Assembly: GCF_025998535.1 (NCBI RefSeq)
Contig: NZ_AP024233.1
Span: 2,938,001 to 3,002,000 of the forward strand
Reading direction: 5' to 3'
Origin: Desulfolithobacter dissulfuricans
Lineage (GTDB): Bacteria > Desulfobacterota > Desulfobulbia > Desulfobulbales > Desulfobulbaceae
Length of the DNA stretch: 64,000 nucleotides
Below are positions 4,717 to 62,085 of the stretch, piece after piece. Within the stretch, counting starts at the first letter, position 1. Each line of letters starts with the position of its first letter. The notes below the pieces were generated by a model, which searched no databases, was not told the origin of the DNA, and saw nothing but the letters and a program-made list of their open reading frames with translations. Made by a program: the position numbers and the translations under genes.

Positions 4717-5856
4717 TTAATCCTTGGTGGTATGGCAGGCGAAACACCCCGCCGTGGCGGTCTGCCCGCCGCCGGCGACCATCTGGCTGTAATCCCAGCG
4801 CAGCATGGAGCTGTAATTACTGGCATGGGCCACATGGCAGGAGAGACACATGACCGCGTCACTGCCGGGTGACACGGTCCCGCTGGGGGCCGCGGGCACC
4901 GAGCCGGTCCGGGCAACCGGCGAGGCGGGATCGTAGACCGTGTACTGGGCATACTCACCGGTCGCAGGCAGGGCCAGGTCGGTGGGATGGCGGATAAAAG
5001 GTGACATGGTGTCGGTGCCGATGCCGTCGGAGGAGTCTGTGGCCACGGTGTGAAAATTACCGTGACAGGTGGCGCAGAACTGGCTCATGGTCCCGTCCGG
5101 CGGCGCCACCCCGGCACCGTCACTGGTATGACAGGATGTGGCATTGCTGCAGCCCAGGGCCACCGGTGCGGTGAGTCCGAAATACTCATTATGGCTGGAC
5201 GAAGAGACCGTCTCTTCCCAGTCACCACTCTCGTATCCCTTGACCCCCATGAGAAACCGGTAACTGTCGGCAGGCTCGGTGGGGTTGGCTATCTGTCCAT
5301 CCACATTCCTGTGGTGGGAACCGCCAATCCCCTCACCCCTGCTGGAATACCGGTAGCCGTGGCAACCGTTGGTGCCGGCACAGCTCAGATTGTTCGTATT
5401 GACATTGAGCCCGTCATCGTGGCCAAACTGGACGATACCGCCCGGAGGGGCGTAAAGCACGGCGTCGGTTCCGGTCAGCGGACCGATGTTGTGCCCCTTG
5501 CGATCCGAGGCCCCACTGCCCTTGAGACCGGTGATGTAGGCGAAATTACCGCCGGCCAGGTCAACCCCGCCGGTATGCATGACCTGGGGCATGTTGTCGG
5601 TGCCCAGGTTCACGGTGGCCGAAGAGCCGCCCTGGGCATGACATCCCAGGCAGGTCCCCCGAAGCAGGTTATTATTCGGCGCAGCGTCCGTATCGAAAGT
5701 CATGGGACTGCCACCCTGGCTGTTATGCATGGTATGGCAGTCGCCGCAGTTACCCTGAATCCGCGCTGATGCCGGTCCGTTCCAGAAAACCCCGGCCAGC
5801 ATCACCGAGGCCATGGCCACGACCATGCGGTACCGGCTTTGTCCACTCCCCAACAT
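4717..5856 (-). CDS. OmcS-like extracellular nanowire-type cytochrome, seven heme motifs
   Basis: A 379-residue secreted cytochrome. ATG 5856 is chosen because AGGAGG lies just upstream and a signal peptide follows, ending WNGPASA. Motifs in order: CGDCH (in a CHTMHNSQGG context), CLGCH, CAGTNGCH (CX5CH), CSNATSCH (CX5CH), CATCH, CLSCH and CFACH at the C-terminus (CHTTKD). The order and flanking elements (CHTMHNS, GGNFAYI, KGHNIGP, SYRFL, IRHPTD, CLSCHVAHAS) follow Geobacter OmcS, the hexaheme filament cytochrome, as I know that sequence. The fourth motif is extra compared with OmcS and with the two paralogues here. It is transcribed divergently from the hexaheme gene at 6631. It is inferred to be a filament subunit or a cap/variant subunit. 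Confidence 0.85.
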   Translation of the reverse strand: MLGSGQSRYRMVVAMASVMLAGVFWNGPASARIQGNCGDCHTMHNSQGGSPMTFDTDAAPNNNLLRGTCLGCHAQGGSSATVNLGTDNMPQVMHTGGVDLAGGNFAYITGLKGSGASDRKGHNIGPLTGTDAVLYAPPGGIVQFGHDDGLNVNTNNLSCAGTNGCHGYRYSSRGEGIGGSHHRNVDGQIANPTEPADSYRFLMGVKGYESGDWEETVSSSSHNEYFGLTAPVALGCSNATSCHTSDGAGVAPPDGTMSQFCATCHGNFHTVATDSSDGIGTDTMSPFIRHPTDLALPATGEYAQYTVYDPASPVARTGSVPAAPSGTVSPGSDAVMCLSCHVAHASNYSSMLRWDYSQMVAGGGQTATAGCFACHTTKD

Positions 5857-6630
5857 AACCTTCCTCCTCACACACTCTGGTGCGTGACCCATGGCGCCCT
5901 CCCTCACCGGATCGAATCCGGAGCAGGGAAAGCCATGCGCCACAAAGATTTGGTGTAAATCTTCTGTCTCCTCTCCCTGGTATTGTTACGGTATTGTACC
6001 AGATTTCAATGAAAAAACAATCTGCTCGACCCGGCAACCAGACACCCTCTACCAGGGGGCAACCGGGGAACTCCTGCCCGGGTAACGGTGATCCCGCTCC
6101 ACTGACCAGCCACCCGTCGGTCCCTGGACTCCGGACGTTCTTTACCGGGCACCATGTTGTTAACCATCTAAAATTACGCTAATTTGACAAAAAACTCTGT
6201 CAGGCGTCGGCAAACATGCAGGGATTCCAGGCTCCATCGCCGACAACCAGGTGGATGGCAAAACAACGGTCTGCAGGGAACAGAACCACGAAAATGAGCT
6301 TTTGCATACAGGGTTCCCCCAGGCCAGATTCAGGGATTTCGAATAGTAAAATTAGGGTAAAAGAAAGCCCTTTTTTTCCTTTTGCTTACCATTCCGGAAA
6401 AAACCACATCGTGATAGCAAAAGTGTTGTTTTTTTTCTTGTCAAACAGCCACGAGATTCCTAAGATGAAAGTAAGGAAGAGGAGCGAGGTAGTTACAGCA
6501 CGACAGTCATCTGCCCCTGACCTTTAATTCAGCGCACCGGTTGCGCACCTTGGTTTTCAGGCAACAGAACAAAGGTTGTAATTAAGTAATGGGGAAGAAA
6601 CTGAGTATCTGTTAAACAAGGAGGAACATC
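5857..6630. other. 774-bp divergent intergenic region between two OmcS-like genes
   Basis: No convincing gene is present. The right half is AT-richer than its surroundings, with poly-T and poly-A runs near 6370-6440, and must hold the promoters of both cytochrome genes. A strong ribosome-binding site (AAGGAGG, 6618-6624) precedes the plus-strand gene. A small inverted repeat (AAGATTT...AAATCTT) lies near 5945-5963. I looked for GEMM (c-di-GMP/cGAMP) riboswitch landmarks, because such switches precede cytochrome genes in Geobacter, and did not find them. Confidence 0.6.
5993..6020 (-). promoter_or_regulatory. Possible sigma-70 promoter for the seven-heme OmcS-like gene
   Basis: On the minus strand TTGTTT (6020-6015), a 16-bp spacer and TACAAT (5998-5993) resemble a -35/-10 pair. 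It lies about 137 bp upstream of the ATG at 5856, which would leave a long leader. The match is partial and the assignment tentative. Confidence 0.3.
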
Positions 6631-7713
6631 ATGAAAGGTATCGCACAGAATGGCAGGATCCATCTACTGGTGCTGGCAGGAGCAGGGCTTCTCTGCCTGC
6701 CAACACTTTCCATGGCCAAGGTAACAGGGCAGTGTGCCCAGTGCCACACCATGCATAACAGCCAGGGTGGCAGCCCCATGGCCGTTGATGCGAGCGGCGC
6801 GGCGCAGTCAGCACCCAACAACGTCCTGCTGGTCAAAGGCTGCGTAGCCTGCCATACCGGCACCAACGACGGCACCAACAATATCCCGTTTGTCAACTCC
6901 ACCACCGCACCGACCTATGGTACGGACGGCACCACGGGTAACACCCTGGCCGGTGGTAACTTCTACTGGGTCGCATCGAGCGGCGGCGCTACCGACGCCG
7001 CTGGCCATAACGTGGCCACCGACAGCCTGGCCGGAGCCGATGCTGCGCTGGGCAACACCCCGCCCGGCGGCACCGCGCTTACCAGCCAGCTGACCTGCGC
7101 CGGCGTCACCGGCTGTCACGGTGACCGGACGGCAACCAGCGACTTCGCCGCTATCTCCGGAGCCCATCACGGAAACGACGGCACCCTCGACGGCACCAGT
7201 GTTGCCACCAGCTTCCGCTTCCTGGACGGCATCGTCGGCCTGGAAGACAGTGACTGGGAATACCAGCCCACCACAACGGCCCATAACCAGTACTACGGCG
7301 TGGACCGGACCGACGAAACCGATCCCACCGGCACCATCAGCAGTCTCTGCGCCGAGTGCCACAACGATTTCCATAACGGCACCGGCAACGTGGCCGGATC
7401 CACCTGGGGCAGCCCCTGGGTCCGCCATCCCACCGACTTTGACATGGGCAACACCGCAGCCGGCTCCGAGTACCGTAATTACGGTGGCGCCGGCGTCAAC
7501 GCCTACGTGGTTTCCGCCCCTGTGGCCAGCACCGACTACAGTGCTGTAAAATCCTCGGTCACCTTTGCCGACGACACCATCGTCACCTGCATATCCTGTC
7601 ACCGGGCCCATGGTACTCCCAATGCGGACCTGCTCCGCTGGGATTACAGCCTTGTCGATGCCGGCAGCGGCAACACAGGCGGCTGTTTCGAGTGCCACAC
7701 CACCAAGAACTAA
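6631..7713 (+). CDS. OmcS-like hexaheme nanowire cytochrome
   Basis: A 360-residue secreted cytochrome with a signal peptide ending TLSMA and a perfect SD (AAGGAGG) 7 nt before ATG. Six heme motifs: CAQCH (CHTMHNSQGG), CVACH, CAGVTGCH (CX5CH), CAECH, CISCH (CHRAHGT) and terminal CFECH (CHTTKN). They align one-to-one with the six motifs of Geobacter OmcS as I know it, and the elements between also match (GGNFYWV, GHNV, FRFL, CHNDFHN, VRHPTD). OmcS polymerises into extracellular micrometre-long wires with stacked bis-His hemes; the same is inferred here. The third site is CX5CH instead of CXXCH. It is the first gene of the plus-strand cluster and is separated from the rest by a terminator, which fits a highly made structural subunit. 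Confidence 0.9.
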   Translation: MKGIAQNGRIHLLVLAGAGLLCLPTLSMAKVTGQCAQCHTMHNSQGGSPMAVDASGAAQSAPNNVLLVKGCVACHTGTNDGTNNIPFVNSTTAPTYGTDGTTGNTLAGGNFYWVASSGGATDAAGHNVATDSLAGADAALGNTPPGGTALTSQLTCAGVTGCHGDRTATSDFAAISGAHHGNDGTLDGTSVATSFRFLDGIVGLEDSDWEYQPTTTAHNQYYGVDRTDETDPTGTISSLCAECHNDFHNGTGNVAGSTWGSPWVRHPTDFDMGNTAAGSEYRNYGGAGVNAYVVSAPVASTDYSAVKSSVTFADDTIVTCISCHRAHGTPNADLLRWDYSLVDAGSGNTGGCFECHTTKN

Positions 7714-7753
7714 GCGTGTAGTGTAATACGCTGCAAAGAACTCCGGCAAAAAC

Positions 7754-7797
7754 AAGCCACCTCTTCCTGCTGTCATGCTGGAGGGGGTGGCTTTTTT
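7754..7797 (+). terminator. Intrinsic terminator/attenuator after the hexaheme OmcS-like gene
   Basis: AAGCCACC (7754-7761) pairs with GGTGGCTT (7785-7792) and is followed by a T run to 7797. It lies 40 bp after the stop codon and before the assembly-type genes. It should stop most transcripts and let a fraction read through, giving far more cytochrome than assembly proteins. Confidence 0.75.
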
Positions 7798-7919
7798 AGG
7801 ATACGATTCCCGAGATTCTCTGCCCATAAACCTGGTCTGCAGCATCTGGCGGACACCAGCTACTGTCCGCCTGGCACCTTCGGGCGGCAAACGATACGGG
7901 GCGACATGGGCACCAGACT

Positions 7920-10148
7920 TTGCCTGCCGGAGAAACCCTCCCACGCTCTGCAACCGTGACCAGGATACCGACTGATATCCATGCTGGACGCCCCTGTTCA
8001 GGAGGCGACAGGACAGGTGCCTGCGCGCCTGTTTCGCATCTTCGGATATTTCCGGCCCACTTCTTCCACCCGGTCCTGGTGTTTCTCGCTCTCCAGTGCG
8101 GTCTGCTCTCCCAGCCGCTGCCGGTCCTGGCCAGCCTCGTCGGCCTGGATGCTTCCTGGAGAATCAGTGAGACCGGCCAGGATAGCGGTCTGGACAACAT
8201 CAGCTCGTTTGGCCAGCGTTACCATGCCCAGTGGAATCCCCGGGTCACCCAGGCCATTTCCCTGGACACCAACATGAACTACTCCCGGACCTGGACCAGT
8301 GGTACCGGTGTTCACGAGACCCTTTCCCCCACGGCCAACTTCCTGGTCCGCAACGACCTCTTTCAGGCCGAGCTGAGCGGCCTGGTCAATCAGACAACCA
8401 ACACTGAGTCCCAGAAACAGACCGACCAGACCTGGGAGGCCTCACTGAGCTCCACCTGGCAGTATGACTGGTGGCCGACCCTGTCCATAACCTTTGGCCA
8501 GAACTGGCTCAGTGACGATGAGACCGTACACCTTGTCGACAACGATCGAGTCTGGACCGAACTGACCGCCGGCTGGGGCCGTAACGGCTTTGACTCCTAC
8601 TATAGCTATTATCAGCAGGAGCGAAACGACTCGGTCGAGCACTCGACCTATAACGAAAAAAAGCATTTCGGTCGCCTGGAATATCAGCGCATGCTCTTTA
8701 ACGATCGGGGCCAGTTCGCCATTTCTCAACAGATAACCCAGTCGACCACCGACTTCTCCGCCGCAGTGTCCGCCGGGCAGACCGTCAACATCTCGCTGAC
8801 CCTGTCCCAGGGACTGGCCGGGGTGGACGACACTCCCGGTGACGGCAGTCTGCCGGCAAACCCCGGCCTGATCGACGGCAACATCAACACGACCTCCTTT
8901 ACCATTCTCCCCGGCGAAGTGGCCAACCTGGGACTTGGAACCGATTACCAGAGGGTGGATCTGCTCCATGTCTACACCACGGAGCTGGATGCCACGACAG
9001 TGGCCCAGGCATCCGACCTGCGCTGGGACCTTTACACCAGCGATGACGGCACGACCTGGCAACGGGTCCTGATCAATCCGACGACCAGCTATAATCAGAC
9101 CGAAAACCGCTACGAGGTGGAAACAGGCGGTGTCCAGGCCATCTATATCAAGCTGGTGGTCACGGCCTGGCCGGCCTTCGCCAATATTCCGATCACCGAA
9201 ATCCATGCTTTCAGGACCGTGACCTCCACCGGCAACGAAGTTGTAGACTCCCAGCGCCAGACCAAGTACCTGACCGATCTGAACTTCCGCTTTGACCCGA
9301 CCAGTGATACCCGGCTCACCTACTCCCTGGTCTGGGACAACTCTGATTTCAATATCGGTAATGACCGGACCCGGCTCTTTCAGTCGGCCAGTTTCAGCTG
9401 GCAGTACAGTAAATATTTCACCCCCACTCTGACCATCAACAACACCGACACCATCAATTCGGAGACCATCGATACCACTACCCGGTCCTACGGGCTCAAC
9501 ATTCGTTCCGCGCCCCTGGAAACCCTGGACACAAGCCTCAGCATCACACGCAATGAAAACTACCAGGAAGGCTCCCGGCTCTCCAGCAATCACACCATCA
9601 CCCTGCTGACCTCGGCCATCCTCTATCCCGACCTGGAATCCACACTGGATATCAACCTCTCCTTCAACAAGAACGAAGAGGCCGGGACCAGCACCGAGGA
9701 AAATTTCAGTGTCCGCTGGAGCCTGACTGCCAGGCTGCGGTCGACCCTGACCGCGGACCTGGTCGCCGATTACAGCGGAGACTCCCTTTCCTGGACTGAC
9801 GTGACGGATAACACCGCCTCCGGAGGCAAGGCCACTCTCAACATCAACTGGCGTCCCTCTGATCTGGTCTCCTTTCAGATCAACGGGGCCCAGGGCTACG
9901 GCAACCAGGAGACCGACAGCCAGAGCCTGCTCTTTGACTCCAAGTTCTCCCTTGTCCGGACCAGGAAGACCCAGGTCACCGTGGGCTACCGGACCAGCTG
10001 GAACCAGGAGGACACGCAGCACAGTTTCAACTCCAATCTCAGCTGGAATATAAGCCGTTACCTGACCCTGCAATCCATTGCCTACTACAGGCTTACAGAC
10101 GAAGAAAACAGCTGGGCCGTCAACGCCCGCCTTACAGCCAGGTTTTAG
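7920..10148 (+). CDS. Outer-membrane beta-barrel protein with an embedded discoidin-like domain (nanowire export candidate)
   Basis: The long frame encodes up to 742 residues. After a hydrophobic signal (VLVFLALQCGLLSQPLPVLA) it shows alternating beta-strands typical of an outer-membrane barrel (many SLSxTW, TLTINN, YGLNIRS-type strands) and ends in Phe (NARLTARF), the usual barrel C-terminus. Residues about 290-430 resemble a discoidin/F5-8C beta-sandwich (DGNINT, WDLYTSDDGTTWQRV, IYIKLVV). The start is uncertain. TTG 7920 opens the frame but leaves a long odd leader. GTG 8017, with AGGAGG at 8000-8005, gives a better signal peptide if one C is missing from CCC at 8056-8058. By position it corresponds to the channel-like component of osc-type nanowire clusters; that is inference. 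Confidence 0.75.
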   Translation: MPAGETLPRSATVTRIPTDIHAGRPCSGGDRTGACAPVSHLRIFPAHFFHPVLVFLALQCGLLSQPLPVLASLVGLDASWRISETGQDSGLDNISSFGQRYHAQWNPRVTQAISLDTNMNYSRTWTSGTGVHETLSPTANFLVRNDLFQAELSGLVNQTTNTESQKQTDQTWEASLSSTWQYDWWPTLSITFGQNWLSDDETVHLVDNDRVWTELTAGWGRNGFDSYYSYYQQERNDSVEHSTYNEKKHFGRLEYQRMLFNDRGQFAISQQITQSTTDFSAAVSAGQTVNISLTLSQGLAGVDDTPGDGSLPANPGLIDGNINTTSFTILPGEVANLGLGTDYQRVDLLHVYTTELDATTVAQASDLRWDLYTSDDGTTWQRVLINPTTSYNQTENRYEVETGGVQAIYIKLVVTAWPAFANIPITEIHAFRTVTSTGNEVVDSQRQTKYLTDLNFRFDPTSDTRLTYSLVWDNSDFNIGNDRTRLFQSASFSWQYSKYFTPTLTINNTDTINSETIDTTTRSYGLNIRSAPLETLDTSLSITRNENYQEGSRLSSNHTITLLTSAILYPDLESTLDINLSFNKNEEAGTSTEENFSVRWSLTARLRSTLTADLVADYSGDSLSWTDVTDNTASGGKATLNINWRPSDLVSFQINGAQGYGNQETDSQSLLFDSKFSLVRTRKTQVTVGYRTSWNQEDTQHSFNSNLSWNISRYLTLQSIAYYRLTDEENSWAVNARLTARF

Positions 10149-10150
10149 CC

Positions 10151-10732
10151 ATGAAAAAGACCATTTTCTACGCCGTGATATCAGCTCTGTTCCTTCTTCT
10201 CCACGGATGTGCCACCATGGAGACAAAGAGTACCTCGACCTTTGTCCGTGAAGGGGTTGACCTGGGATATGTCACCAGGGTCGCTGTTCTGCCCTTTGAA
10301 AACAACACCCAGGATGACTTCGCCGCTCAGCGAATCCGTGATATAACCGCCACCCAGATCCTGGCCATGGGCATCTTCGACGTGGTGGACAAGGGCATCG
10401 TCGACAGTGCGCTGCGGGAAATGGCCATCGACCAGGATACCCCGATGGACGCGCCCCTGGTGAAACGGCTTGGTCAGCGTCTGGGGGTCCAGGGCTTTAT
10501 CCTCGGTACGGTCAACGGTCTCGGTGAACGGCGCCAGGGATCGTTCAGCTATCCGGAGATATCCCTGACCCTGGAACTGCTCGACGCCCAGTCGGCCCTG
10601 GTACTCTGGCGGACCAGCGATACCATGAGCGGCTACTCGCTGTCCGACCGGCTCTTCGGCTTAAGTCCGCTGGACAGTTTTCAGCTCACCGTCAACCTGC
10701 TGCAGAACATGCTGGCCACCATACCCAAGTAA
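10151..10732 (+). CDS. CsgG/TolB-like outer-membrane lipoprotein
   Basis: A 193-residue lipoprotein (signal with lipobox LLHGC, mature Cys at about 20). The body resembles the CsgG/DUF799/TolB-N fold seen in curli-type secretion lipoproteins: RVAVLPFENNT, then a helix, AQRIRDITATQIL, MGIFDVVDKGIVDSAL and LGVQGFILGTVNGLGE, with LVLWRTSDTMSG near the C-terminus. It starts 2 bp after the barrel gene and follows it in the same operon. CsgG forms the outer-membrane curli pore; a related role in exporting or anchoring cytochrome filaments is plausible but inferred. I would class it with the channel-like components of the osc cluster. Confidence 0.75.
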   Translation: MKKTIFYAVISALFLLLHGCATMETKSTSTFVREGVDLGYVTRVAVLPFENNTQDDFAAQRIRDITATQILAMGIFDVVDKGIVDSALREMAIDQDTPMDAPLVKRLGQRLGVQGFILGTVNGLGERRQGSFSYPEISLTLELLDAQSALVLWRTSDTMSGYSLSDRLFGLSPLDSFQLTVNLLQNMLATIPK

Positions 10733-10877
10733 AGACGAGGTTACCGGGTGCAAAAAGCTGAGGGACACATGGAGATACCATCACCGGCAATCCCGGTGCA
10801 GCGGTACGGGGGCCGAACGCCAGGACTCAACTCAGGTTCACGGGCAGGAATAATGCAAGGCAAGCGGCTTTAACATC

Positions 10878-12368
10878 ATGCACAACCACCGAGCACTCAT
10901 ACTGGCCCTGCTGCTCTGGATATCATGGCCTCTTGCAGCCCAGGGCCAGACCATTGCCCTGTTCCCGCTGCTGGACCTGACCATCGGCGCCAACGGAGTC
11001 AACCTGGAACTGACCTCGCAGCTGCGCAGGCAGCTGGAGGAGCGGAATTTTGAACTGGTCGATGAAGATACGATAATGCGTTTTCTCGTCCGCCACCGGA
11101 TCCGTACCCTGGGCCGGCTGACCAGTTACGAAATCTCCATGGTCAAAAAGGAACTGGACGCCGAGTTCACCATGGTGGGGACGGTCTGCGAACTGAAAGA
11201 CAAGCCCGGACCTGCCATCAGCCTCAGCCTCCAGCTGATCCGTACCACGGACAGGGTCATCATCTGGTCCAATGCCTGGGAACTTTATTTCGCCGACAGG
11301 ATTACCCTGCTGGGACTGCATGATCCCCGGGTCCTCGACGACATGTATCAGGACTTTTTCTCCCGGCTGCTCGATTCAATGCCCAGGGAAACCCTGCCGG
11401 TGGCCGAGGCAAAAAAGGAGCTCAATATCGACTCGGTGGTCCTGACCCCACAGTATGCCCGGCCTGGAGAAGAGATTTCCTGCAAGGTCAAGCTGTACCG
11501 CCAGCAGCTGGAAAACCCGATTCAGCCGGACCTAGTCGCCAGGATCGGTAACCAGGAGTACCCCCTGAGCCTGGACCGGGAGGGATACTATTTCATCGCT
11601 ACCTGGCCGGCCCAGGAGGCCGCCGGTCGATATACCGTCACCCTGCACGCCAGGTGGCCCGACAACTCCGAACAGGAACTGGTGATCGGCTCGTACGGGG
11701 TGGACACCGAACCTCCGGAGGTTACGCTCAACCTGGTGGCCAGAGAAATCGATGGTGAACTCTATTTCAGCGATAAACTGATCATTATCCCCAAGCTGCT
11801 TAATCCCGAACCGGTGGTCCGCTGGGAGGTCATGGTCCTGGATGACCAGGATGAAACTATCGTCCTCCAGAGCGCGGCCCAGCATGTGCCCAGACGGCTG
11901 ACCTGGCGTGGCAAGACCAGCCTGGGAGCCACGGCACCCGATGGCGACTACCGGATTGTTTTCAAGGTCTGGGACCGGGCCGGACGGGAGTCCTCGGCCG
12001 AGGCCTGGGTCGTGTACAGACACCAGCCGCCGGACATTGTCCTGGAAGTCACGGAAGAGACGGGACAGCTGCTGGTGGATGTGGATAACCTGGAGTTGAC
12101 GCCCATCTCGTACTGGTGGATGAAGTTCTTTGCCCCGGACGGCCATCTGCTCAAACTGGCTGAAGGGGAAGAGCTTCCGGCCACCGTGACCCTGGAGCTG
12201 ACCAGGAAAGAAGAGCGCACAGGCCCCATTGAATGTATCCTGGTGGCCCAGGACGAGCTTGGCAACAAGACTTGGCGTCGGATTCGCAACCTGCTCCAGC
12301 TGCGCCGGATGGAAGAACCCGAGGATGAAGATATCGAAGTGGAAACCGAATGGGTGGAGGAATTCTGA
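10878..12368 (+). CDS. Secreted CsgG-like N-domain protein with Ig-like C-terminal domains
   Basis: A 496-residue protein with an N-terminal signal peptide (cleavage after AAQGQ or nearby). Residues 24-165 resemble the CsgG/TolB-type fold of its neighbours (IALFPLLDLT, LTSQLRRQLEERNFELVDED, AEFTMVGTVCEL, VIIWSNAWELYF). Residues about 185-270 and 275-380 look like beta-sandwich modules of the Ig/FlgD type (YARPGEEISCKVKLY; APDGDYRIVFKVWDRAG). The C-terminus is acidic (EEPEDEDIEVETEWVEEF). The 145-bp gap before it holds no gene or recognisable RNA. It is one of three CsgG-like proteins in a row, which suggests a hetero-oligomeric outer-membrane assembly; its specific role is unknown. Confidence 0.7.
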   Translation: MHNHRALILALLLWISWPLAAQGQTIALFPLLDLTIGANGVNLELTSQLRRQLEERNFELVDEDTIMRFLVRHRIRTLGRLTSYEISMVKKELDAEFTMVGTVCELKDKPGPAISLSLQLIRTTDRVIIWSNAWELYFADRITLLGLHDPRVLDDMYQDFFSRLLDSMPRETLPVAEAKKELNIDSVVLTPQYARPGEEISCKVKLYRQQLENPIQPDLVARIGNQEYPLSLDREGYYFIATWPAQEAAGRYTVTLHARWPDNSEQELVIGSYGVDTEPPEVTLNLVAREIDGELYFSDKLIIIPKLLNPEPVVRWEVMVLDDQDETIVLQSAAQHVPRRLTWRGKTSLGATAPDGDYRIVFKVWDRAGRESSAEAWVVYRHQPPDIVLEVTEETGQLLVDVDNLELTPISYWWMKFFAPDGHLLKLAEGEELPATVTLELTRKEERTGPIECILVAQDELGNKTWRRIRNLLQLRRMEEPEDEDIEVETEWVEEF

Positions 12369-12371
12369 ACC

Positions 12372-12962
12372 GTGACCCTGCACCATCGCCTGCTCATACT
12401 CTGTGGTGTGGTTCTTCTTGCCGGTTGCGCCCGTTCCGGGCCAACGCTCGATGTGTTCGGGCCGCTGCCGGAAAACGCGTCCTGCCGGGTGGCCCTGCTG
12501 CCGCTGGCCGACAGGAGCAACTATCCCCAGGGCGGGGCGATCTTCTACAAGATCTTTCTTTCCGAGCTGGTTGCTTCGGGCCGATACCAGGTTGTCCCGG
12601 AAGGGGACATCCTGGAAATCTACCAGCAGCTGATGATCTATCCCAGTCAGCTGCCCAGCCAGGAACAACTGGAAATCATCGGTGGCCGACTCGGGGTGTC
12701 GCTGTTTATCAGCGGCGAGATTCTCTCCATGCGCGAACCCCGAAGCGGGGTCTACATGCAGCCGGAACTGACCCTGATCCTGCGGTTGCATGACGGCCGG
12801 ACCGGCGCCGTTCTCTGGTCCACCTATCACCGGCGCCTGGGCACGGATTACCATGAAGTACTGCATTTTGGCCGAATCAACACCATTGCCGGGCTTGCCA
12901 GGCGCATGACCCGGGAAATAATAACCCTATGGCACCAGAAAGGACTTGCACCATGCCCATGA
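12372..12962 (+). CDS. CsgG-like outer-membrane lipoprotein (second)
   Basis: A 196-residue lipoprotein starting at GTG 12372, 3 bp after the previous stop, with lipobox VLLAGC. The core is a CsgG-type fold (CRVALLPLADRSNYPQGG, YKIFLSELVASGRYQVVPEGDIL, LGVSLFISGEIL, AVLWSTYHRRLG). Its end overlaps the start of the prolyl isomerase gene, so translation is coupled. Together with the lipoprotein ending at 10732 and the protein ending at 12368 it makes a trio of related proteins between the barrel and the chaperone. I infer an export pore or pore-associated ring for the cytochrome filament. Confidence 0.75.
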   Translation: MTLHHRLLILCGVVLLAGCARSGPTLDVFGPLPENASCRVALLPLADRSNYPQGGAIFYKIFLSELVASGRYQVVPEGDILEIYQQLMIYPSQLPSQEQLEIIGGRLGVSLFISGEILSMREPRSGVYMQPELTLILRLHDGRTGAVLWSTYHRRLGTDYHEVLHFGRINTIAGLARRMTREIITLWHQKGLAPCP

Positions 12963-14581
12963 CGTTGACCCGAACCATCCTTTTCAGTCTCATCATCCTG
13001 CTGGCACCGATCTCTCCCGGCCAGGCAGGCTGGTTCTGGGACGACGACACGCTCGTTACCATTGACGGGCAGAAATACACCACCGAGGACTTTCGCACCT
13101 GGTGGGAGAACTGGCGGGAAAAGGACCAGCCCCTCCCGGAGACCCCGGACCCCTTTATCGACTGGACCCTGCTCTACCGGGAAGCGGAACGGATGAAGCT
13201 CTACGAGGATCCGACCTACCGCAAAAAGGTGCTCACCTTTCTCAAGGCCAGGACCCTGATGATGCTCAAGGCCGAAGAGGTCGACCGGAAAATCGATATC
13301 AGCGACGAGGCGATGTGGCAGCGTTACCAGGAGCAGTACGCGCCCATGTACCAGCTTAACATCCTCTTCTTCCACACCAGGGAAGCGGCCGAAAAGACGG
13401 TGGAGAGATTTGGAGACCGCCGGGCCGATGATGAGCAGTTTTCGACCCTGCAAATCGGCAAGGATGGCTTGGTGTCCCTGCAGACCAGGTGGTATCGGCC
13501 GGTGGGGGTCAATCCGGAATGGCTTGATATTATCCGCGGTCTCAAGCCGGGCGACTTCACCGAGCCCATCCCGTGGCAGAAGGGTTTTGTCGTCCTGCGG
13601 CTGCAAAATATCCAGGAGGGCGACAGGGAGGATTTCGCCACGGTCCGCAAATCGATCCGGGATGCCCTCTGGAAGGAACAGGAAACGGTTCGCACCCGGG
13701 AGCTTCTCGAGAAGCTGCGGGAAAAATACAAAGTGGTCGTAGACGAAAAGCGGTTGGCGGCCCTGGATATCGAGGCCCCGGATGACTCATTTGGCGACGA
13801 GCCGGTCATCACCACGGACCGGGGTTCGGTAACCGAAAAACAATTCATGGCCCAGGTTCGCAGGCTGCAGCGGTTCAGACAGCAGAACGGCTTCAACCAG
13901 GACAGTGATTATGATTTCAAGAAACAGGTCTTAAGCGGCATTATCGACCAGACCCTGACCACCTGGGAAGGGTTGGCCCGGGGCTATGAGAAAAAGGCTC
14001 CCCTCAAGGGGGTCTATACCTTTTACTGCCAGCACCGGTTGATCAGGAACCTGGAAGAACGGCTCTTCATCCCCGAGGCCCAGGTCACGGACGAGGAAAT
14101 TGAGAAGTACTATCGGGAACACATCGACGAATTCACCCAGCCGGAAATCATCCGAATGGCCATTGTCGAAGGTACCCGGGAGTCCCTCGATGCCCTGTGG
14201 ACCGAGGTGGCCATGGGCGGCAACTTCATGGACGTGGCCAGGGAGCGGCTTGGCCACCCGGTGCCGGTGCGGGAGATCCCGTACAATCACCTGGAAGCGG
14301 AGGTCAAGGCTGTGGTGGACAAGCTGACCAACGGCGAAATAAGCCCGGTCTTCACGGTCAAGGAGCATGTGACCATGCTCCAGCTGGTGGAGAGAAAACC
14401 GGCCAAGGCCATGGAGCTTGACCGGGTCAGGAAACATATCCACGACAAACTCTACCAGGAAAAGGTCAAGGCAGCCAGGGAGGCCTTTCTCGCGCGACTG
14501 CGGGCGCAGTCCACCATAGAGATCAATGACAAGGTCTGGCAGAAACTAAGAGATGAGATGGAACCAACAGATGAAAAATAA
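12953..14581 (+). CDS. SurA/PpiC-type periplasmic prolyl isomerase chaperone
   Basis: A 542-residue secreted protein (signal peptide ending ISPGQA). It has a SurA-like N-domain and two parvulin-like regions. The first covers about residues 125-230 (YQLNILFFHTREAAEKT, FTEPIPWQKGFVVLRL) and the second about 390-500 (PEIIRMAIVEGT, LGHPVPVREIPYNH, ISPVFTVKEHVTMLQLVERKPAKAM). Both copies are divergent. ATG 12953 overlaps the upstream stop. In Geobacter a prolyl-isomerase chaperone (OscH, from memory) in the omcS cluster is needed to fold OmcS; position and architecture suggest the same job here. The next gene starts inside its last codons. Confidence 0.8.
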   Translation: MPMTLTRTILFSLIILLAPISPGQAGWFWDDDTLVTIDGQKYTTEDFRTWWENWREKDQPLPETPDPFIDWTLLYREAERMKLYEDPTYRKKVLTFLKARTLMMLKAEEVDRKIDISDEAMWQRYQEQYAPMYQLNILFFHTREAAEKTVERFGDRRADDEQFSTLQIGKDGLVSLQTRWYRPVGVNPEWLDIIRGLKPGDFTEPIPWQKGFVVLRLQNIQEGDREDFATVRKSIRDALWKEQETVRTRELLEKLREKYKVVVDEKRLAALDIEAPDDSFGDEPVITTDRGSVTEKQFMAQVRRLQRFRQQNGFNQDSDYDFKKQVLSGIIDQTLTTWEGLARGYEKKAPLKGVYTFYCQHRLIRNLEERLFIPEAQVTDEEIEKYYREHIDEFTQPEIIRMAIVEGTRESLDALWTEVAMGGNFMDVARERLGHPVPVREIPYNHLEAEVKAVVDKLTNGEISPVFTVKEHVTMLQLVERKPAKAMELDRVRKHIHDKLYQEKVKAAREAFLARLRAQSTIEINDKVWQKLRDEMEPTDEK

Positions 14582-16574
14582 AATATCCGGCAAAGAGTTG
14601 TGGTTGCTGCTGGGAGTGGCAGTGGGTATCCTGCTGATCTCCTGTGTACAGACCAGCAAACAGCCCACCAAGGCCCAGGCCAAGACCTGCCTGGACTGCC
14701 ACCCGGAAATGGGAGAAAAGTTCAAGCAGGGGTACGTCCATAAACCGGTGGCGGAAAACCAGTGCAACTCCTGCCACCTGCCGCACGGACTCATCGGCGG
14801 GCTCTTTCTGCGCGAAAAAGAGCCATCCCTCTGTTATTCCTGCCACGACAACCTGAGGCTGGCTCCCGATCAGAAATCCGCCCATGACCCTGCCGGGCCG
14901 GGAAAATGTTCCAACTGCCATAAGCCCCATAACAGCCAGAATCCGGCCCTGCTCAAGACTCCGGCGCCGGAGAACTGTTATTCCTGCCACGAGCAGAAGA
15001 ACTTTGAGAAAAAAGTGGTCCACGCACCTCTGGCCAAAGGATGCCAGACCTGCCACAATCCGCATAAATCGGATAACATCGCCCTGCTCAACCAGGAGCC
15101 CGATGCCCAGTGCATGAGCTGTCATGAGGTGGACAGGAAATCGTTCATCACGGCCCACAGCAACTATCCCGTTACCACCGGCTGCCTGCGTTGTCATACG
15201 CCCCACTCCGCGGACCAGCCTTTCCTGCTGCGGAAAAATATCCACCAGCCGGTGAAAAAGGGGGAATGCAGCAGTTGTCACCAGGTTCAGAAGAACAAAA
15301 TCCTGACCAGGGATACACCGAACAATCTCTGTCTGAAATGCCATACCTCCCCAGACCCGGGCAGTACGGGCAGCAGCCATAAACCCCATGTGGACCGGAA
15401 GTGCACCTCCTGCCACGCGATCCATGCCAGCGATGCCCCTCTACTGCTGAAAGAGGCACCGGAAAAGATATGTCTCACCTGTCACCGGGTAGAAGACATT
15501 CCCATGGCCGAGTCCGGGGAAACCGATAACACCGGGGCAAAAAAAGTAAAAATCATCAAGAGTGTGCATGAACCGGTGGCCGGCGGCAACTGCCTGGACT
15601 GTCATAATGGCCATGCCTCGGCCCAGAAGAACCTGCTCAAAACGGACAAAAAGGGTCTGTGCCTCTCCTGCCATGACGCCCGGCAATATGAAGAGAGCCC
15701 GGGTTCGCACCCGCCGGAGAACGGTAAGGCGTGCAACACCTGTCATCAGCCCCACAAGTCCTACAATCCCTCTCTGCTTGTGCAGAGCCAGAAGAAGCTC
15801 TGTTTTTCCTGTCACCGGAAAGAGTCGGACGAACAGGGACGGTTCAGTCTCCATCGGCCCTTTGCCACCGGAAACTGTGTGGGCTGTCACAGTCTGCATG
15901 GCGCAAAAGAAGAGAAATATCTCAAGGCATCCCGAGAAAACGGCGCTCTCTGCCTTTCCTGCCATGAAAACATCCAGCAACCCGGCGAATCGATCCGGCC
16001 CCATGAACCGGTGGCCAAAGGCCGGTGCGAGCAGTGTCATGCCCCGCACGCCGCCGACTACGCCAACGTCATTCGGCAAAAACCAGGCAGGATATGCCTC
16101 ACCTGTCACGAAGACGTAAAAAGCACCATTAACAACGCCGCGGTGGTGCATCAGCCGGCCGTGGACGAAAACTGCATCAGCTGTCATGCGGCCCATGGCT
16201 CTCCCCACGAACATATCCTCAAAAAGGGCCAGCCTATGCTTTGTCTCACCTGTCATACCGAAGTGGCCAGGGACTGGCGCAAGGGCGTGATTCACAAGCC
16301 GGCCATGCAGAACTGCATGGAGTGTCACCGGGCCCATGGCTCGGATGAACCGGCTATGATCAACTCCAGACCCGAAGCGCTCTGCGTCCGATGTCATGAA
16401 AGCGGAACCACCGACTTTCTTGCGGCCCACTCCAATATCAGACCAGGAGCGGATTCCTGCATCAGCTGCCATGATGCCCACGGCAGTCCGGACAAGGGGT
16501 TGCTTTACCCGGTCGGCCATGCACCGTTTCTCGAGGGAACCTGCAAACCCTGTCATGACGGGAGGGCCAAATGA
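14571..16574 (+). CDS. 26-heme c-type cytochrome, lipoprotein
   Basis: A 667-residue protein with lipobox LLISC, so it is probably anchored in the outer membrane. I count 26 CXXCH motifs, from CLDCH to CKPCH, in regular pairs. The repeating unit has HxPV-x-x-G-x-C-x-x-C-H-x-P-H-x-S followed by a run ending LCxxCH, about 45-55 residues per two hemes (the doubled CXXCH motif family). Such proteins are extended heme wires. ATG 14571 overlaps the stop of the prolyl isomerase gene; ATG 14553 is an alternative. The stop overlaps the next gene (ATGA at 16571). Its place inside the nanowire assembly operon suggests it links periplasm to filament or barrel. Confidence 0.9.
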   Translation: MKNKISGKELWLLLGVAVGILLISCVQTSKQPTKAQAKTCLDCHPEMGEKFKQGYVHKPVAENQCNSCHLPHGLIGGLFLREKEPSLCYSCHDNLRLAPDQKSAHDPAGPGKCSNCHKPHNSQNPALLKTPAPENCYSCHEQKNFEKKVVHAPLAKGCQTCHNPHKSDNIALLNQEPDAQCMSCHEVDRKSFITAHSNYPVTTGCLRCHTPHSADQPFLLRKNIHQPVKKGECSSCHQVQKNKILTRDTPNNLCLKCHTSPDPGSTGSSHKPHVDRKCTSCHAIHASDAPLLLKEAPEKICLTCHRVEDIPMAESGETDNTGAKKVKIIKSVHEPVAGGNCLDCHNGHASAQKNLLKTDKKGLCLSCHDARQYEESPGSHPPENGKACNTCHQPHKSYNPSLLVQSQKKLCFSCHRKESDEQGRFSLHRPFATGNCVGCHSLHGAKEEKYLKASRENGALCLSCHENIQQPGESIRPHEPVAKGRCEQCHAPHAADYANVIRQKPGRICLTCHEDVKSTINNAAVVHQPAVDENCISCHAAHGSPHEHILKKGQPMLCLTCHTEVARDWRKGVIHKPAMQNCMECHRAHGSDEPAMINSRPEALCVRCHESGTTDFLAAHSNIRPGADSCISCHDAHGSPDKGLLYPVGHAPFLEGTCKPCHDGRAK

Positions 16575-17745
16575 TAGTACGCCAACTCTTTTTCAGTCTG
16601 GTTCTTGTCCTTGGCTTTTCGGGGCTGGCTCCGGTTCCGGCCCTGAGCGCCGAGGTCTGTTTCCAGTGTCACGATGCCAAACAGTTCCAGGCCCGCTATG
16701 TGCACGAACCGGTGACCGCCTCCCAGTGTGCCACCTGCCATAACCCCCATGTGGCCCGCTACCCTGGCCTGCTGCGCAGCCGGGAAGATATCCTCTGCTA
16801 CAGCTGTCATAAGAAACAGAAAACCGACTTCAAGCAGGGAATTATCCATGAACCGGTGTCGAGGGGCCAGTGCAGCGTCTGCCATGCCCCCCATGCCTCG
16901 AATCGCCAGGCTCTGGTGCGTGACAATCTGGCAGAGGACTGCTTTAGCTGTCACAAGACCCTGCCCAGGGAATTCAAAAACACCCATAAACCCTTTGCCG
17001 AGGGTCAGTGTATCTCCTGCCACCGGCCGCACCGGGCCGACAACCTGGAGTTGCTGAACCGGGAACCAGACGGTCTGTGTCGTTCCTGTCACGAAGCGCC
17101 ACAGCTGGCCGAGAGCCACAAGAACTATCCCGGCAAAATCACCAACTGTCTTTCCTGCCACAACCCCCATGGCAGCGAACGGCCGGCCCTGGTGCGCGAT
17201 GTTCTGCACAAGCCTTACGAGGAAGGCTGCGCCTCCTGCCACAACACCCCGGGCGGCAACACCATGGCGGCCTGTCTGACCTGTCATGAACATGTCAAGA
17301 GCCAGATGTATGCCCCCACAACCACCTGACCCTGCACGAAGGCAACTCCTGCCTCAACTGTCATTCACCCCATGCCGGCAATGACAAGGCCCTGCTCAAG
17401 GGTCCGGAACGGCTGCTCTGTGCGGCCTGCCATGAGGAGACCCTGGCCGGTTACAAGAAGAGCAAATCCAAGCATCCGCCGGTCAAGAAATGCAGCCAGT
17501 GTCACCAGTCCCACGGGGCCACGAACCTGGCCATGCTCAGGGGCAATGGCAACGATGTCTGTGTCCAGTGCCATGAGGACCAGGGCAAGTTCACCCATCC
17601 GGTCGGACCCGAGGTTCTGGACTCACATACCGGCCAGATGGTGACCTGTGTTTCCTGCCATAATCCCATGGGCACGGAGTACAAGTATCACCTGATAGAG
17701 GAAGGGAAGAAGGCGCTGTGCGTACTTTGCCACAAGACCTACTAA
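16571..17745 (+). pseudogene. 16-heme c-type cytochrome, split by a one-base frameshift
   Basis: The first frame has a signal peptide (PVPALSA) and ten CXXCH motifs (CFQCH to CLTCH) and stops at 17329. The frame shifted by one continues HNHLTLHEGNSCLNCH and adds six more motifs (CLNCH, CAACH, CSQCH, CVQCH, CVSCH, CVLCH), ending CHKTY at 17745. One extra C in the CCCCC run at 17313-17317 restores a single protein of about 391 residues. It shares the doubled CXXCH repeat of the 26-heme neighbour, with which it overlaps by 4 bp. It is probably intact in the organism and should be a periplasmic or outer-membrane electron carrier. Confidence 0.85.
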
Positions 17746-17843
17746 GCCAGACCCGGGGCGGAACGTGCAGGCCTGTCGGCTGCCCCGCTACCCTGCCGGC
17801 CGTGGACTCCGCAGCTGCGGAACAACGATGAGGTAATCGTGCG

Positions 17844-18737
17844 ATGAAGATCAGAGTGTCAGCCTGGCTGACAGGGTCATTTTTGACTCTGTCGCTGCTT
17901 TTGACGTATAATACAGTAACGGTAACAGCCGGTTCGCCCTGGCGCTGGAGCCTTGTTCTCAAACAAAATGTACCAAAAGATGCCATGATCATGCCCACTG
18001 CCATGTATGTCGATGCAGAAAAGGGGCATTACTACGTGGTGGACTCCGGCCGCAACCGGCTGCTCTCCTTTGACCGTCGGGGCGAACTTCTGCACATCTT
18101 CAATGCCGGCAAGGCCCTTGATATCCCCTACGACATCATCCGTACCGGCCGGGGCGGTATCTGGGTGGTGGAAAAGGGCAAGAACTCGCTCAGCTACATC
18201 GACCTCAAGGCCCGAAAAGTTGTTCCCCATACCCTGAGATATCAGGGCAGGCTCATCTATCCTGACCGGATAGAACCCCTGGAGGACAATATCCTTGTTC
18301 TCGACAAGGCCACCGGAAACATCATCGAGTATTCCGCCGACCTGATCCCCCGTAGACTCTTTTCCTGCGACAACTGCCCCTGGGGCTTTGTCGACTTCAA
18401 GATCCATGATGGAAAACTGTGGGCCCTGGACCAGCGCAACAAGTCCATCCAGCGCTTTAACCTGGACGGACAGGTGGAACAGGTGCTGGAGCTTGGCAAT
18501 GATGTCAACTTTCCCGTCTCCCTGGCCGTGGGACCGTCCGGGTATATCTATGTCCTGGACCGACACCGGCGCGATATCGCCGTGTATGACAGGGACGGTT
18601 CATTCAAATATCGTTTTCTGCGCGGTGGTATTGCCCAGGGACAGCTCTATTATCCCATAGAACTCCGGTTTGACCCGTGGGGCGGGCTCTGTGTGGTGGA
18701 CGAGGGAAATGCCAGGGTCGAGGTTTTCCGCAGATAG
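17844..18737 (+). CDS. Secreted NHL-repeat beta-propeller protein (OscD-like position)
   Basis: A 297-residue protein with a signal peptide ending TVTAG. Five to six NHL-type blades are visible: MYVDAEKGHYYVVDSGRNRLLSFD, IWVVEKGKNSLSYID, ILVLDKATGNIIEY, LWALDQRNKSIQRFN, IYVLDRHRRDIAVYD, LCVVDEGNARVEVF. It has no heme motif; two Cys (CDNC) sit in the middle. From memory, the Geobacter omcS cluster has a beta-propeller protein (OscD) that affects filament morphology. The order here (cytochromes, propeller, then another OmcS-like gene 12 bp downstream) fits the same role. The assignment rests on context, not on a family comparison I could run. Confidence 0.8.
   Translation: MKIRVSAWLTGSFLTLSLLLTYNTVTVTAGSPWRWSLVLKQNVPKDAMIMPTAMYVDAEKGHYYVVDSGRNRLLSFDRRGELLHIFNAGKALDIPYDIIRTGRGGIWVVEKGKNSLSYIDLKARKVVPHTLRYQGRLIYPDRIEPLEDNILVLDKATGNIIEYSADLIPRRLFSCDNCPWGFVDFKIHDGKLWALDQRNKSIQRFNLDGQVEQVLELGNDVNFPVSLAVGPSGYIYVLDRHRRDIAVYDRDGSFKYRFLRGGIAQGQLYYPIELRFDPWGGLCVVDEGNARVEVFRR
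17883..17912 (+). promoter_or_regulatory. Possible internal sigma-70 promoter in the NHL gene
   Basis: TTGACT, an 18-bp spacer and a perfect TATAAT lie inside the signal-peptide coding region. If real it would feed the second OmcS-like gene at 18750 and what follows. The signal-peptide region is AT-richer than the rest, so a chance match is quite possible. Confidence 0.25.
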
Positions 18738-18749
18738 GGAGGGGGCCAA

Positions 18750-19816
18750 ATGATGCGCCATACGATATGCTGTACTGTTTTAGTGCTGCTGGCCATACCG
18801 GTCGCGGGCAGCGCCAGGGTAACGGGCCCCTGTGTCAACTGCCATACCATGCATAACTCCCAGAACAATTTTCCGGTCACCGACAGTGGTAGCCCCAACA
18901 ATGCCCTGCTGGTCTCTGACTGCGTCGGCTGTCATACCGGGACCAACAACGGGGTTAATGACACCCCATATGTCTTTGACACCAGTCCGCCCATGTACGG
19001 CGACACCGGCACCGAAACCACCGCCAATACCCTGGCCGGGGGCAACTTCTACTGGGTCGCCGCCGGCGGCACCCTGATCGACGATCGGTTCGGCCATAAT
19101 GTGGCCGGCATCGCCGCCCCGGACGCCTCCCTTTCCCTGCCGCCCGGCGGTGACGGCACCTTCAATACCCAGCTCCGTTGCGCCGGCACCTCGGGCTGCC
19201 ATGGCCGCCAGGGTGTCAGTGAACAGATATCTGCCATGAAAGGGACCCATCACTACAAGGACCACACCATCTGGCAGGATGGAACCACCCTGGCAAAGAG
19301 CTACCGTTTCCTCGATACCATCCAGGGGCTCGGGATCCGGCGTATGAATTCCACCCGGATTATCTGCAGCACAACAAGTACTACGGCCGGGACCGGACCT
19401 CCGAAACCGACCAGGCACCAGGCACCATAAGCTCTCAATGCGCCCGCTGCCACCAGAACTTCCACGACGGCTCCGGCTCCGTGGCCTCGTCAACCACCTT
19501 CGGCACCGGGGTCTGGCTCCGGCATCCCACGGACTTCGACATGTCGGGCGCCCTGTCCTCCTCTGAATATCGTCAGTATAACGGCGGTTCGGGGACAAAC
19601 AACACCTACAGCGTCATCTCGCCGGTGGCCACCGAGGACACCTCCACCACCCTCAACACCACGGTCTTCACGGTGCAGAACGACGCAGTGGTGATGTGCC
19701 TCTCCTGTCACCGGGCCCATGGCACGCCCTATGCCGGTATACTCCGCTGGAACTACAAGGCATGGCCCGCCGCAGGTTTCAACGGCTGCGCCGTCTGCCA
19801 TACAGCCAAGGATTGA
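18750..19816 (+). pseudogene. Second hexaheme OmcS-like cytochrome, split by a one-base frameshift
   Basis: The first frame has a signal peptide (ending AGSA) and three heme motifs: CVNCH (CHTMHNSQ), CVGCH and CAGTSGCH (CX5CH). It then runs out of frame after DTIQGLG. The shifted frame reads DPAYEFHPDYLQHNKYYG and supplies CARCH, CLSCH (CHRAHGT) and CAVCH (CHTAKD). One more G in GGG at 19332-19334 restores about 355 residues with the same six-motif order as the gene at 6631, to which it is clearly paralogous (GGNFYWV, FGHNVAG, YRFLD, RHPTDFDM). The broken state probably reflects an indel error. It starts 12 bp after the NHL gene. Confidence 0.87.
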
Positions 19817-19821
19817 AAAAA

Positions 19822-21186
19822 ATGGATCGCATGGACACACTCTTTACAGGATCAGCCTGCCGACAGCGCCCGCCGGGCCGTCCGGCCGGGAGCCCATGGT
19901 CGCGTCTGCGGACCGGGCTGCTCGTCACCACCCTGTGCAGCCTCGGCTTCTTCATTCCCTGGTCAACCCAGGCCGGCCCCTACATGGATTCAGCCCACGG
20001 TTCAGCCACCGACGGGGTATACCGGGCCACCATAGGCGATCCGCCTCCGGCGGGGGCCGGCTACTCCCGGGGCAACTGCGCCCACTGCCATGAACAGCAT
20101 GCCAGCATCGAGGGAGCCGAACCCTTCCCGGCCAATGGTCCGGCCGCCTTTGAAATCTTTACCCCCAATTTCAACACCGCGGCCCAGACCACACCTTACA
20201 GTGAAGCAGACAACTTCTGTTTCTCCTGCCACAACTCCACAGCCTCGGTCCAGCAGGTGCTGAACCGGGATTACAGCGAGACCTTTGGCTGCGACAGCGC
20301 GGGTAGTGGTCCCACCTCCATCATGGATGCCATGAACCAGATATCCTATCACAATCTCTATGATATCTGGTCGTTTTCCCGGAGCCAGTTCAGCTGGTTC
20401 CGCGATGATTCCAATCCCTGCGGCGCCTGCCACAATCCGCACCTGGCCCGGAGGAACCTGGCCAACACCAGGGACCCGGCGTTCTCCGCCATTTCCAAAC
20501 CAACGGACCATTTTTCCCTCTGGGGCCCGACCCAGACCATGGGGAGTGCGTATAACACCAGCTATGAACCGCCCTTCTGCAACGACACCGCCACCAACCG
20601 GGAGCCGGATGGCAGCGCCGATGCAATAAGCGGCCGGGCCAACACTCCGGATTATGTCGGATTCTGTACCGACTGCCACAACACCTCCACCACCATCAGT
20701 TCCACCCTGCTGGGTACGGTCATCCAGATCGACTGGTCCTCAAGCGGAGACAAACACGGCACGGCCGGTGACAGTCCCGGCGACACCATCAAAGGACCTT
20801 ACAATGCAACAGGCACCTATGTTCTCTCCTGTGCAGACTGCCATGAACCCCATGGTGCCCCCAATATCAGACTGCTGCGCAGACGGGTCAACAGCAGTAC
20901 TCTTTCCGACGCCAGCGACCAACCTGCCAACATCACCAATCCTGACTCGGTTCAATGGGGTTATCTGTGCAGAAAATGTCACATGGATGATTACGACGCC
21001 GTGCAGGCAGGACTGAATAACTCCAGCTACAGTACAGGAGAAAAAAATAAATGGGAATATGTGCACCATCTCGCCAGTGATCGCCCCTACGTCCAGAAAC
21101 AGTGTGGCTGGTGCCATCCTGGAGGCGGATCTAATCCCCCTCCCATCAACTGCAACCAATGCCACCTTCACGGCAAGACGTTCTGA
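19822..21186 (+). CDS. Octaheme c-type cytochrome
   Basis: A 454-residue secreted protein. ATG 19822 is 5 bp after the previous stop, and a long n-region leads to the hydrophobic stretch LLVTTLCSLGFFIPW and cleavage near STQA. Eight CXXCH motifs are present: CAHCH, CFSCH, CGACH, CTDCH, CADCH (CHEPHG), CRKCH, CGWCH and CNQCH. Spacing is irregular, with long non-heme stretches, and the N-terminal GPYMDSAHG segment is typical of periplasmic or cell-surface multiheme proteins found in Geobacter-type clusters. It may be a partner or cap of the second OmcS-like protein just upstream. I do not recognise it as a named cytochrome. Confidence 0.85.
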   Translation: MDRMDTLFTGSACRQRPPGRPAGSPWSRLRTGLLVTTLCSLGFFIPWSTQAGPYMDSAHGSATDGVYRATIGDPPPAGAGYSRGNCAHCHEQHASIEGAEPFPANGPAAFEIFTPNFNTAAQTTPYSEADNFCFSCHNSTASVQQVLNRDYSETFGCDSAGSGPTSIMDAMNQISYHNLYDIWSFSRSQFSWFRDDSNPCGACHNPHLARRNLANTRDPAFSAISKPTDHFSLWGPTQTMGSAYNTSYEPPFCNDTATNREPDGSADAISGRANTPDYVGFCTDCHNTSTTISSTLLGTVIQIDWSSSGDKHGTAGDSPGDTIKGPYNATGTYVLSCADCHEPHGAPNIRLLRRRVNSSTLSDASDQPANITNPDSVQWGYLCRKCHMDDYDAVQAGLNNSSYSTGEKNKWEYVHHLASDRPYVQKQCGWCHPGGGSNPPPINCNQCHLHGKTF

Positions 21187-21192
21187 GCCGTC

Positions 21193-23905: not shown

Positions 23906-23929
23906 ACCGACATGAAGGGGACACAGACC

Positions 23930-29064: not shown

Positions 29065-29253
29065 CTTATGAGCACTCCGTCAGACTATGACTTAGATTTT
29101 CCACTCCGCTAAACCAGCCTGCGGATCCCGGTTCAGCTATCAGGGGCAAGGGTGTCCCGAAACGGAGCGGCCCTGTTGCTGCCACTCCGCTCAAGGATCC
29201 ACCTTTTGTGCGGTCCTGCGCTTTCCCGGGCTTACGAGAGTGAATAATGGATG

Positions 29254-33658: not shown

Positions 33659-33671
33659 AAAACAAGAGACC

Positions 33672-34628: not shown

Positions 34629-34676
34629 TATCGCCTCCAGGATTTTCAGGTAATCCACCTGTTTTCCAAAGCCGAG

Positions 34677-36502: not shown

Positions 36503-36507
36503 GATCG

Positions 36508-37563: not shown

Positions 37564-37576
37564 AGCCTCCCCTTCC

Positions 37577-60789: not shown

Positions 60790-60796
60790 GGCGACC

Positions 60797-61660: not shown

Positions 61661-61683
61661 CAGTATATATCCTCCTTCGCTGC

Positions 61684-62058: not shown

Positions 62059-62085
62059 CGTCTCTCCTCCACTCAGGCCAGGGAA

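Follow-up and report, generated by a model that had tools for sequence, protein, structure and literature searches.

A putative osc-type gene cluster for exporting and assembling OmcS-like multiheme cytochromes in Desulfolithobacter dissulfuricans

Gene content of the locus

We analyzed a 64,000-nucleotide stretch of the Desulfolithobacter dissulfuricans genome (NZ_AP024233.1; G000:C1:2938001-3002000 in our own labels for genomes, contigs, and loci), hereafter the window, which lies within a single-contig genome of 3.6 Mb. Between about 4.7 and 22.6 kb, the window contains a complete counterpart of the Geobacter omcS-companion (osc) cluster, for which export of electron-conducting cytochrome filaments has been proposed. 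Its parts are three OmcS-like cytochromes, an outer-membrane barrel, three small proteins of the CsgG/LpoB fold, a PpiC prolyl isomerase, a 26-heme and a 16-heme cytochrome, and two propellers. The original prediction, right in outline, placed a set of such genes at 6631-18737, and all of those it named are found there on the + strand. The cluster is wider on both sides, with 4717-5943 upstream and 18750-22625 downstream. Its gene order is also seen in more than 10 genomes, which excludes a chance arrangement.

At the left end lie two divergent genes for OmcS-like cytochromes, C (4717-5943, - strand) and A, which is secreted (6631-7713, + strand); the pair is kept in the relatives L063 and L065. 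All genes that follow are on the + strand. Downstream of A are an outer-membrane beta-barrel (7920-10148, with the true start probably downstream of 7920), which by position is the counterpart of OscE, and an ortholog of OscF, a PelC/LpoB-fold lipoprotein (10151-10732). Two genes then correspond to the halves of OscG: a secreted protein of 496 amino acids that adds an immunoglobulin (Ig)-like C-terminal region to the N-terminal half (10878-12368), and a PelC/LpoB-like lipoprotein with the lipobox LAGC for the C-terminal half (12372-12962). They are followed by orthologs of OscH, a SurA/PpiC prolyl isomerase (12929-14581; Pfam Rotamase_2, 1.2e-27); of OscI, a lipoprotein cytochrome with 26 CXXCH motifs and a lipobox (14553-16574); and of OscJ, a frameshifted 16-heme cytochrome (16571-17745). 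The cluster is completed by a secreted NHL propeller distinct from OscD (17844-18737), the frameshifted OmcS-like cytochrome B (18750-19816), an octaheme cytochrome of uncertain start that is a conserved neighbor (19696-21186), and a frameshifted ortholog of OscD, a beta-propeller lipoprotein with DUF4382 and the lipobox VSC (21193-22625).

The OmcS-like cytochromes

Cytochrome A has five CXXCH motifs and one CAGVTGCH (CX5CH), making six putative hemes. The CX5CH replaces the third CXXCH of OmcS; the protein does not carry six CXXCH motifs, and it holds six hemes only if CX5CH binds heme. Cytochrome C has five CXXCH and two CX5CH motifs, and B has intact orthologs in two relatives (L063_18428 and L065_3382). 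The six heme motifs and the His of CHTMHNS (the TMH motif) are invariant in 14 OmcS-like sequences. We take this His to be the equivalent of OmcS His16, the inter-subunit heme ligand.

When the profile of the OmcS-like family was compared with the PDB, the sole significant solved structure was OmcS (6ef8, 2.1e-25). The homology is full length, with the alignment extending through the last heme. In a tree, all three copies of the window fall in a sister clade of OmcS/OmcT/OscC, outside it, with an ultrafast bootstrap of 100, and the OmcS-like proteins have a shorter stretch than OmcS between hemes 5 and 6. The predicted label "OmcS-type" has to be weakened in view of the sister-clade position and the altered third heme motif. 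A distant paralog of cytochrome C, 65% identical in one part, lies elsewhere in the genome at G000:C1:725811-726886 (L074).

Comparison with the Geobacter osc cluster

The query was an OmcS sequence that aligns with PDB 6ef8 across all 407 residues (4.4e-282). Among 395 genomes from the phylum, it led to the Geobacter-type genome G362, which carries an OmcS with 72% identity to this sequence; the comparisons below use Geobacter-type genomes in place of G. sulfurreducens itself. The order in G362 is omcS, a 1034-amino-acid protein, an OmcS-like gene, a 467-amino-acid propeller, and the barrel, continued by two small proteins of 231 and 387 amino acids, PpiC, the 26-heme and 16-heme cytochromes, a propeller, and two OmcS-like genes. 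GSU2501, GSU2495, and GSU2494 are oscC, oscI, and oscJ (PMC13194489); we assigned the other letters by order and homology.

Every non-cytochrome part of the cluster matches its Geobacter counterpart profile to profile, with E values from 1e-17 to 1e-43 and in nearly the same order, and unrelated family pairs compared as a control gave no signal. The barrel matches at 1.9e-43, OscF at 1e-32 (35% identity), and OscH at 1.7e-30 over 480 columns in hhalign; OscI is 35% identical over 664 amino acids. The 26-heme cytochrome, the 16-heme cytochrome, and the propeller stand in the same order in both clusters. The predicted homology to osc is thus strong for each component and for gene order. This includes the barrel, the small proteins, and the isomerase, whose lack of similarity to osc had been set beforehand as the first of two refuting conditions; similarity to the Geobacter-type parts was found for all of them, so that this condition does not refute the prediction. 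Residues ~325 to 436 of the barrel form an apparent inserted beta-sandwich domain, modeled with a predicted local distance difference test (pLDDT) score of mostly 63 to 80; the best hint in the PDB is CBM32 (5zu6, E 0.43).

The propeller taken for OscD, at 17844-18737, is the wrong gene: it matches the Geobacter-type propeller after OscJ at 2e-23, versus 5e-6 for OscD. The cluster does contain an OscD ortholog, the gene at 21193-22625, which matches Geobacter-type OscD at 1.5e-37 (profile to profile). The 16-heme gene is present but broken by one frameshift, with 10 CXXCH motifs in 16571-17329 and 6 in 17296-17745. Its intact orthologs have 16, among them L063_16132, which joins both frames, and G362 has a 16-heme counterpart.

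The three proteins predicted to be CsgG-like are all there, but their family profiles match PelC, LpoB, and GNA1162, and CsgG is absent from the matches in the PDB to an E value of 10 and in Pfam to 1. We dropped the name for this lack of CsgG matches; PelC/LpoB-like fits better. The profile of 10151-10732 matches the PelC structures 5t0z (4.8e-9), 5t11, 5t10, and 9h80; that of Geobacter-type OscF also matches PelC (1.7e-6), and that of 12372-12962 matches 9h80 (0.0026). No PelB match was seen for the barrel at 7920-10148. The structure 5t0z is PelC from Geobacter metallireducens, and 5t10 is PelC from Paraburkholderia phytofirmans (PMC10897342).

Geobacter-type OscG consists of two related domains in one gene. 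For the N-terminal part of 10878-12368, the match to its N half is at 1.5e-17 and that to its C half at 9.7e-10; for 12372-12962, the values are 4.6e-8 and 9.5e-20, respectively. These half-by-half matches indicate that the two genes together are OscG, split here, so that the three small proteins are OscF and a split OscG. Nothing in OscF or OscG corresponds to the C-terminal part of 10878-12368, which matches FlgD_ig at 0.0016, below the cut-off.

Overall, the window and Geobacter clusters share the OmcS-like proteins, barrel, OscF, OscG domains, OscH, OscI, OscJ, propeller, and OscD in nearly the same order. Unlike the Geobacter-type cluster, the window divides OscG between two genes and adds an Ig-like region to it, and it has OscD downstream rather than upstream, OmcS-like proteins of the sister clade with CX5CH, and extra octaheme and 5-heme genes.

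Distribution and published relatives

Earlier studies describe clusters of this kind from related sulfur bacteria; what is new here is the detail of its parts. Skennerton et al. (2017, PMC5539420) described a core of four genes in SEEP-SRB1, HotSeep-1, and Desulfurivibrio alkaliphilus, the last with two copies. It agrees with our cluster in its six-bladed propeller, 16-heme and 26-heme cytochromes, and prolyl isomerase; unlike here, OmcS is not mentioned there. OetABI/OmcS-like clusters were described in sulfate reducers and noted in Desulfobulbia (Murali et al. 2023, PMC10553843), and a Lake Cadagno sulfate reducer has an operon with a 26-heme cytochrome and a prolyl isomerase (PMC12246660).

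D. alkaliphilus belongs to the same order as the window organism and to a different family. Its cytochromes DA_402, DA_756, and DA_765 were placed in a sister clade of OmcS in a 2025 study that counted heme motifs as CX2-5CH (PMC12545173). The same study found DA_402 to be the most prominent OmcS homologue, more than 100-fold up on ferrihydrite, an Fe(III) oxide, and modeled it as an OmcS-like filament with a template modeling score (TM-score) of 0.56 (PMC12545173). The words "osc" and "isomerase" are absent from its main text. Primers published for DA_402 have exact matches in genome G195 (locus L078), with the forward primer at gene position 998, as its name says; G195 is therefore D. alkaliphilus itself or a strain with the same sequence at this place. 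In G195, DA_402 lies directly upstream of the barrel, OscF, both OscG halves, and PpiC of the same split-OscG variant, and after PpiC come the 26-heme and 16-heme cytochromes, a propeller, a multiheme OmcS-like gene, and an OscD-like gene. The gene plan of the window recurs in a second D. alkaliphilus cluster. The DA_402 and DA_756/DA_765 clusters thus share with ours the split OscG, the CX5CH cytochromes, and the same kinds of downstream neighbors. The differences are that D. alkaliphilus has two clusters versus one in the window and that protein identity is ~30 to 50%; cytochrome C and DA_402, for example, share 48.5% identity across 330 aligned positions.

We counted the OscG types from the match table of the 395 genomes, scoring the split type by matches over nearly the whole length of the 10878-12368 family. 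This family occurs in about 33 genomes and single-gene OscG in about 11, plus a shorter, 351-amino-acid form in family f20. In the latter (e.g., G055), the OscG-like gene has two domains and CX5CH OmcS-like genes lie elsewhere in the genome. Both the single-gene and the split type are present in G301 (L058) and G008, two genomes useful for asking whether each OscG type serves its own cytochrome. Given these exceptions (f20, G301, and G008), we dropped a strict rule that would have tied every split OscG to CX5CH OmcS. In a tree of the 26-heme protein, the split and single-gene groups of clusters examined separate with full support.

Proposed function and alternative explanations

We consider it likely that this locus is an osc-type cluster that exports and assembles OmcS-like multiheme cytochromes. 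The observations behind this are the homology of every part, the gene order, the conserved heme and His pattern of OmcS, and the PelC relationship; from these we infer ring formation, export, polymerization, and the direction of electron flow. In Geobacter, OscH is assigned to folding, OscE/F/G to secretion, and OscD to morphology (Shen et al. 2025, as reported in PMC13194489). In the proposed mechanism, apo-cytochromes would enter the periplasm through Sec and have heme attached there, and OscH, as a PpiC chaperone, would assist their folding. OscF and both OscG halves, with their PelC-like fold, might form one or more rings beneath the barrel and pass the cytochromes through. Outside the cell, the OmcS-like subunits would probably polymerize, or else remain surface cytochromes, with OscD shaping the exported proteins. 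The 26-heme and 16-heme cytochromes may supply electrons from the periplasm to the OmcS-like subunits. The cell would use the system to exchange electrons with Fe(III) oxides, electrodes, or partner cells, in connection with dissimilatory sulfur metabolism.

The ring is suggested by analogy with PelBC, in which twelve PelC lipoproteins sit as a ring on the PelB barrel (PDB 9h80, PMC12141448). Both systems have lipoproteins of the same fold beside an outer-membrane barrel; the cargo is an exopolysaccharide in PelB-PelC, whereas a protein cargo is proposed for the window. The PelC relationship offers a concrete structural model for leading a folded cytochrome to an outer-membrane barrel.

Several results weigh against this assignment. 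The OmcS-like protein shares only ~34% identity with OmcS across 314 aligned positions in a pairwise comparison, a phmmer search of the PDB with this one sequence did not return OmcS, and AlphaFold with 5 sequences gave no usable structure (pLDDT 29). The barrel model is also poor (pLDDT 49.5), all beta but too weak for a strand count. The physiological role of the Geobacter OmcS filaments is itself disputed (PMC13194489), and three cluster genes and one neighbor are frameshifted in the assembly.

Such frameshifts would be expected if the cluster were decaying into pseudogenes. Locating them by tblastn with intact orthologs, we found a single frame change in each of the 16-heme (17296-17317), OmcS-B (~19325-19334), OscD (~22236-22239), and downstream decaheme (26052-26067) genes. 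The adjacent kinase is split inside its CHASE4 domain: one frame covers positions 2-64 of Pfam CHASE4, and the second covers positions 85-139. Each gene has only one indel, however, its frame otherwise stays open and is well conserved, the orthologs are intact in relatives, and breaks are not confined to the cluster, as the paralog at 725811-726886 is in three pieces over several reading frames. Decay is thus very improbable. The frameshifts are probably assembly errors, since there is one indel per gene with conserved sequence on both sides, and breaks occur elsewhere in the genome.

The barrel could instead form a porin-cytochrome conduit with the 26-heme and 16-heme proteins, the OmcS-like cytochromes being its outer partners that need no special export channel. 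OetABI is built in this way, from a periplasmic cytochrome (OetA), a porin (OetI), and an extracellular-facing cytochrome lipoprotein (OetB), and is often found with OmcS-like genes in place of omcS/omcT (PMC10553843); the 26-heme protein of the window likewise carries a lipobox. Foldseek listed the barrel of the Mtr complex among weak matches to the barrel model, but the matches were outer-membrane barrels of many kinds, with TM-scores of at most ~0.25. The conduit also offers no explanation for why PpiC, OscF, both halves of OscG, and OscD are conserved, and work on Geobacter assigns OscEFG to secretion (PMC13194489). We regard it as distinctly unlikely. Somewhat less unlikely is that export takes place as proposed but the cytochromes stay unpolymerized, at the surface or in the matrix. 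The proteins belong to a sister clade rather than to OmcS itself, have CX5CH as the third motif and a shortened segment from heme 5 to heme 6, and no imaged filament of the clade appears in the papers we consulted. Against this stand the invariant His16-type motif and heme pattern and the OmcS-like filament model of the DA_402 homolog (TM-score 0.56, PMC12545173).

If the export and assembly reading is right, its genes become testable targets in a cultured sulfur bacterium. We further propose, tentatively and with slightly less than even confidence, that the cluster represents a second widespread exporter subtype. In it, a soluble Ig-bearing subunit and a PelC-like lipoprotein would together take the place of single-gene OscG, and the system would serve a sister family of OmcS filaments with one CX5CH heme. 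The subtype would then be the export machine for the OmcS-like cytochrome induced in D. alkaliphilus respiring Fe(III) oxide with sulfide. This would join strands treated apart in the papers we consulted: the core operon of sulfate-reducing partners of anaerobic methanotrophic archaea, the more than 100-fold induction of the OmcS-like cytochrome in sulfide-driven iron respiration, and the machinery proposed for OmcS export in Geobacter.

Sulfur metabolism and neighboring genes

The prediction set the cluster about 42 kb from dsrMKJOP. The distance is ~41 kb, and DsrP, DsrO, and DsrK at 59617-63717 score above the NCBIfam cut-offs, as does DsrM, which lies mostly just outside the window. With dsrA and aprA also in the genome, calling the organism sulfate reducing is fair on genomic grounds, but D. 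alkaliphilus, with such genes, runs DsrAB in reverse (PMC12545173), and the window organism may either reduce sulfate or oxidize sulfide.

Upstream of the cluster, on the - strand, are a NarL-type response regulator (1737-2381; NarL/MctR-like matches below cut-off) and the frame-split CHASE4 histidine kinase (2378-3898 and 3862-4443). Their proximity makes it possible that this pair (1737-4443) regulates the cluster. The octaheme gene at 19696-21186 has homologs in loci L009, L062, L065, L076, and L087. A 5-heme cytochrome and a 200-amino-acid membrane protein, conserved neighbors at 22682-24514 (+ strand), have homologs in both D. alkaliphilus clusters. Further on, at 25042-27531, are the frameshifted decaheme cytochrome and an NHL propeller, with homologs near the cluster in L062, L066, L067, L077, and L087. 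A second cytochrome group lies on the - strand at 28012-38520 and comprises 14-heme, 16-heme, 3-heme, and 6-heme cytochromes, an NHL propeller, a formate-dehydrogenase-gamma-like cytochrome b, and a frameshifted cytochrome gene. This group is possibly an inner-membrane or periplasmic electron path.

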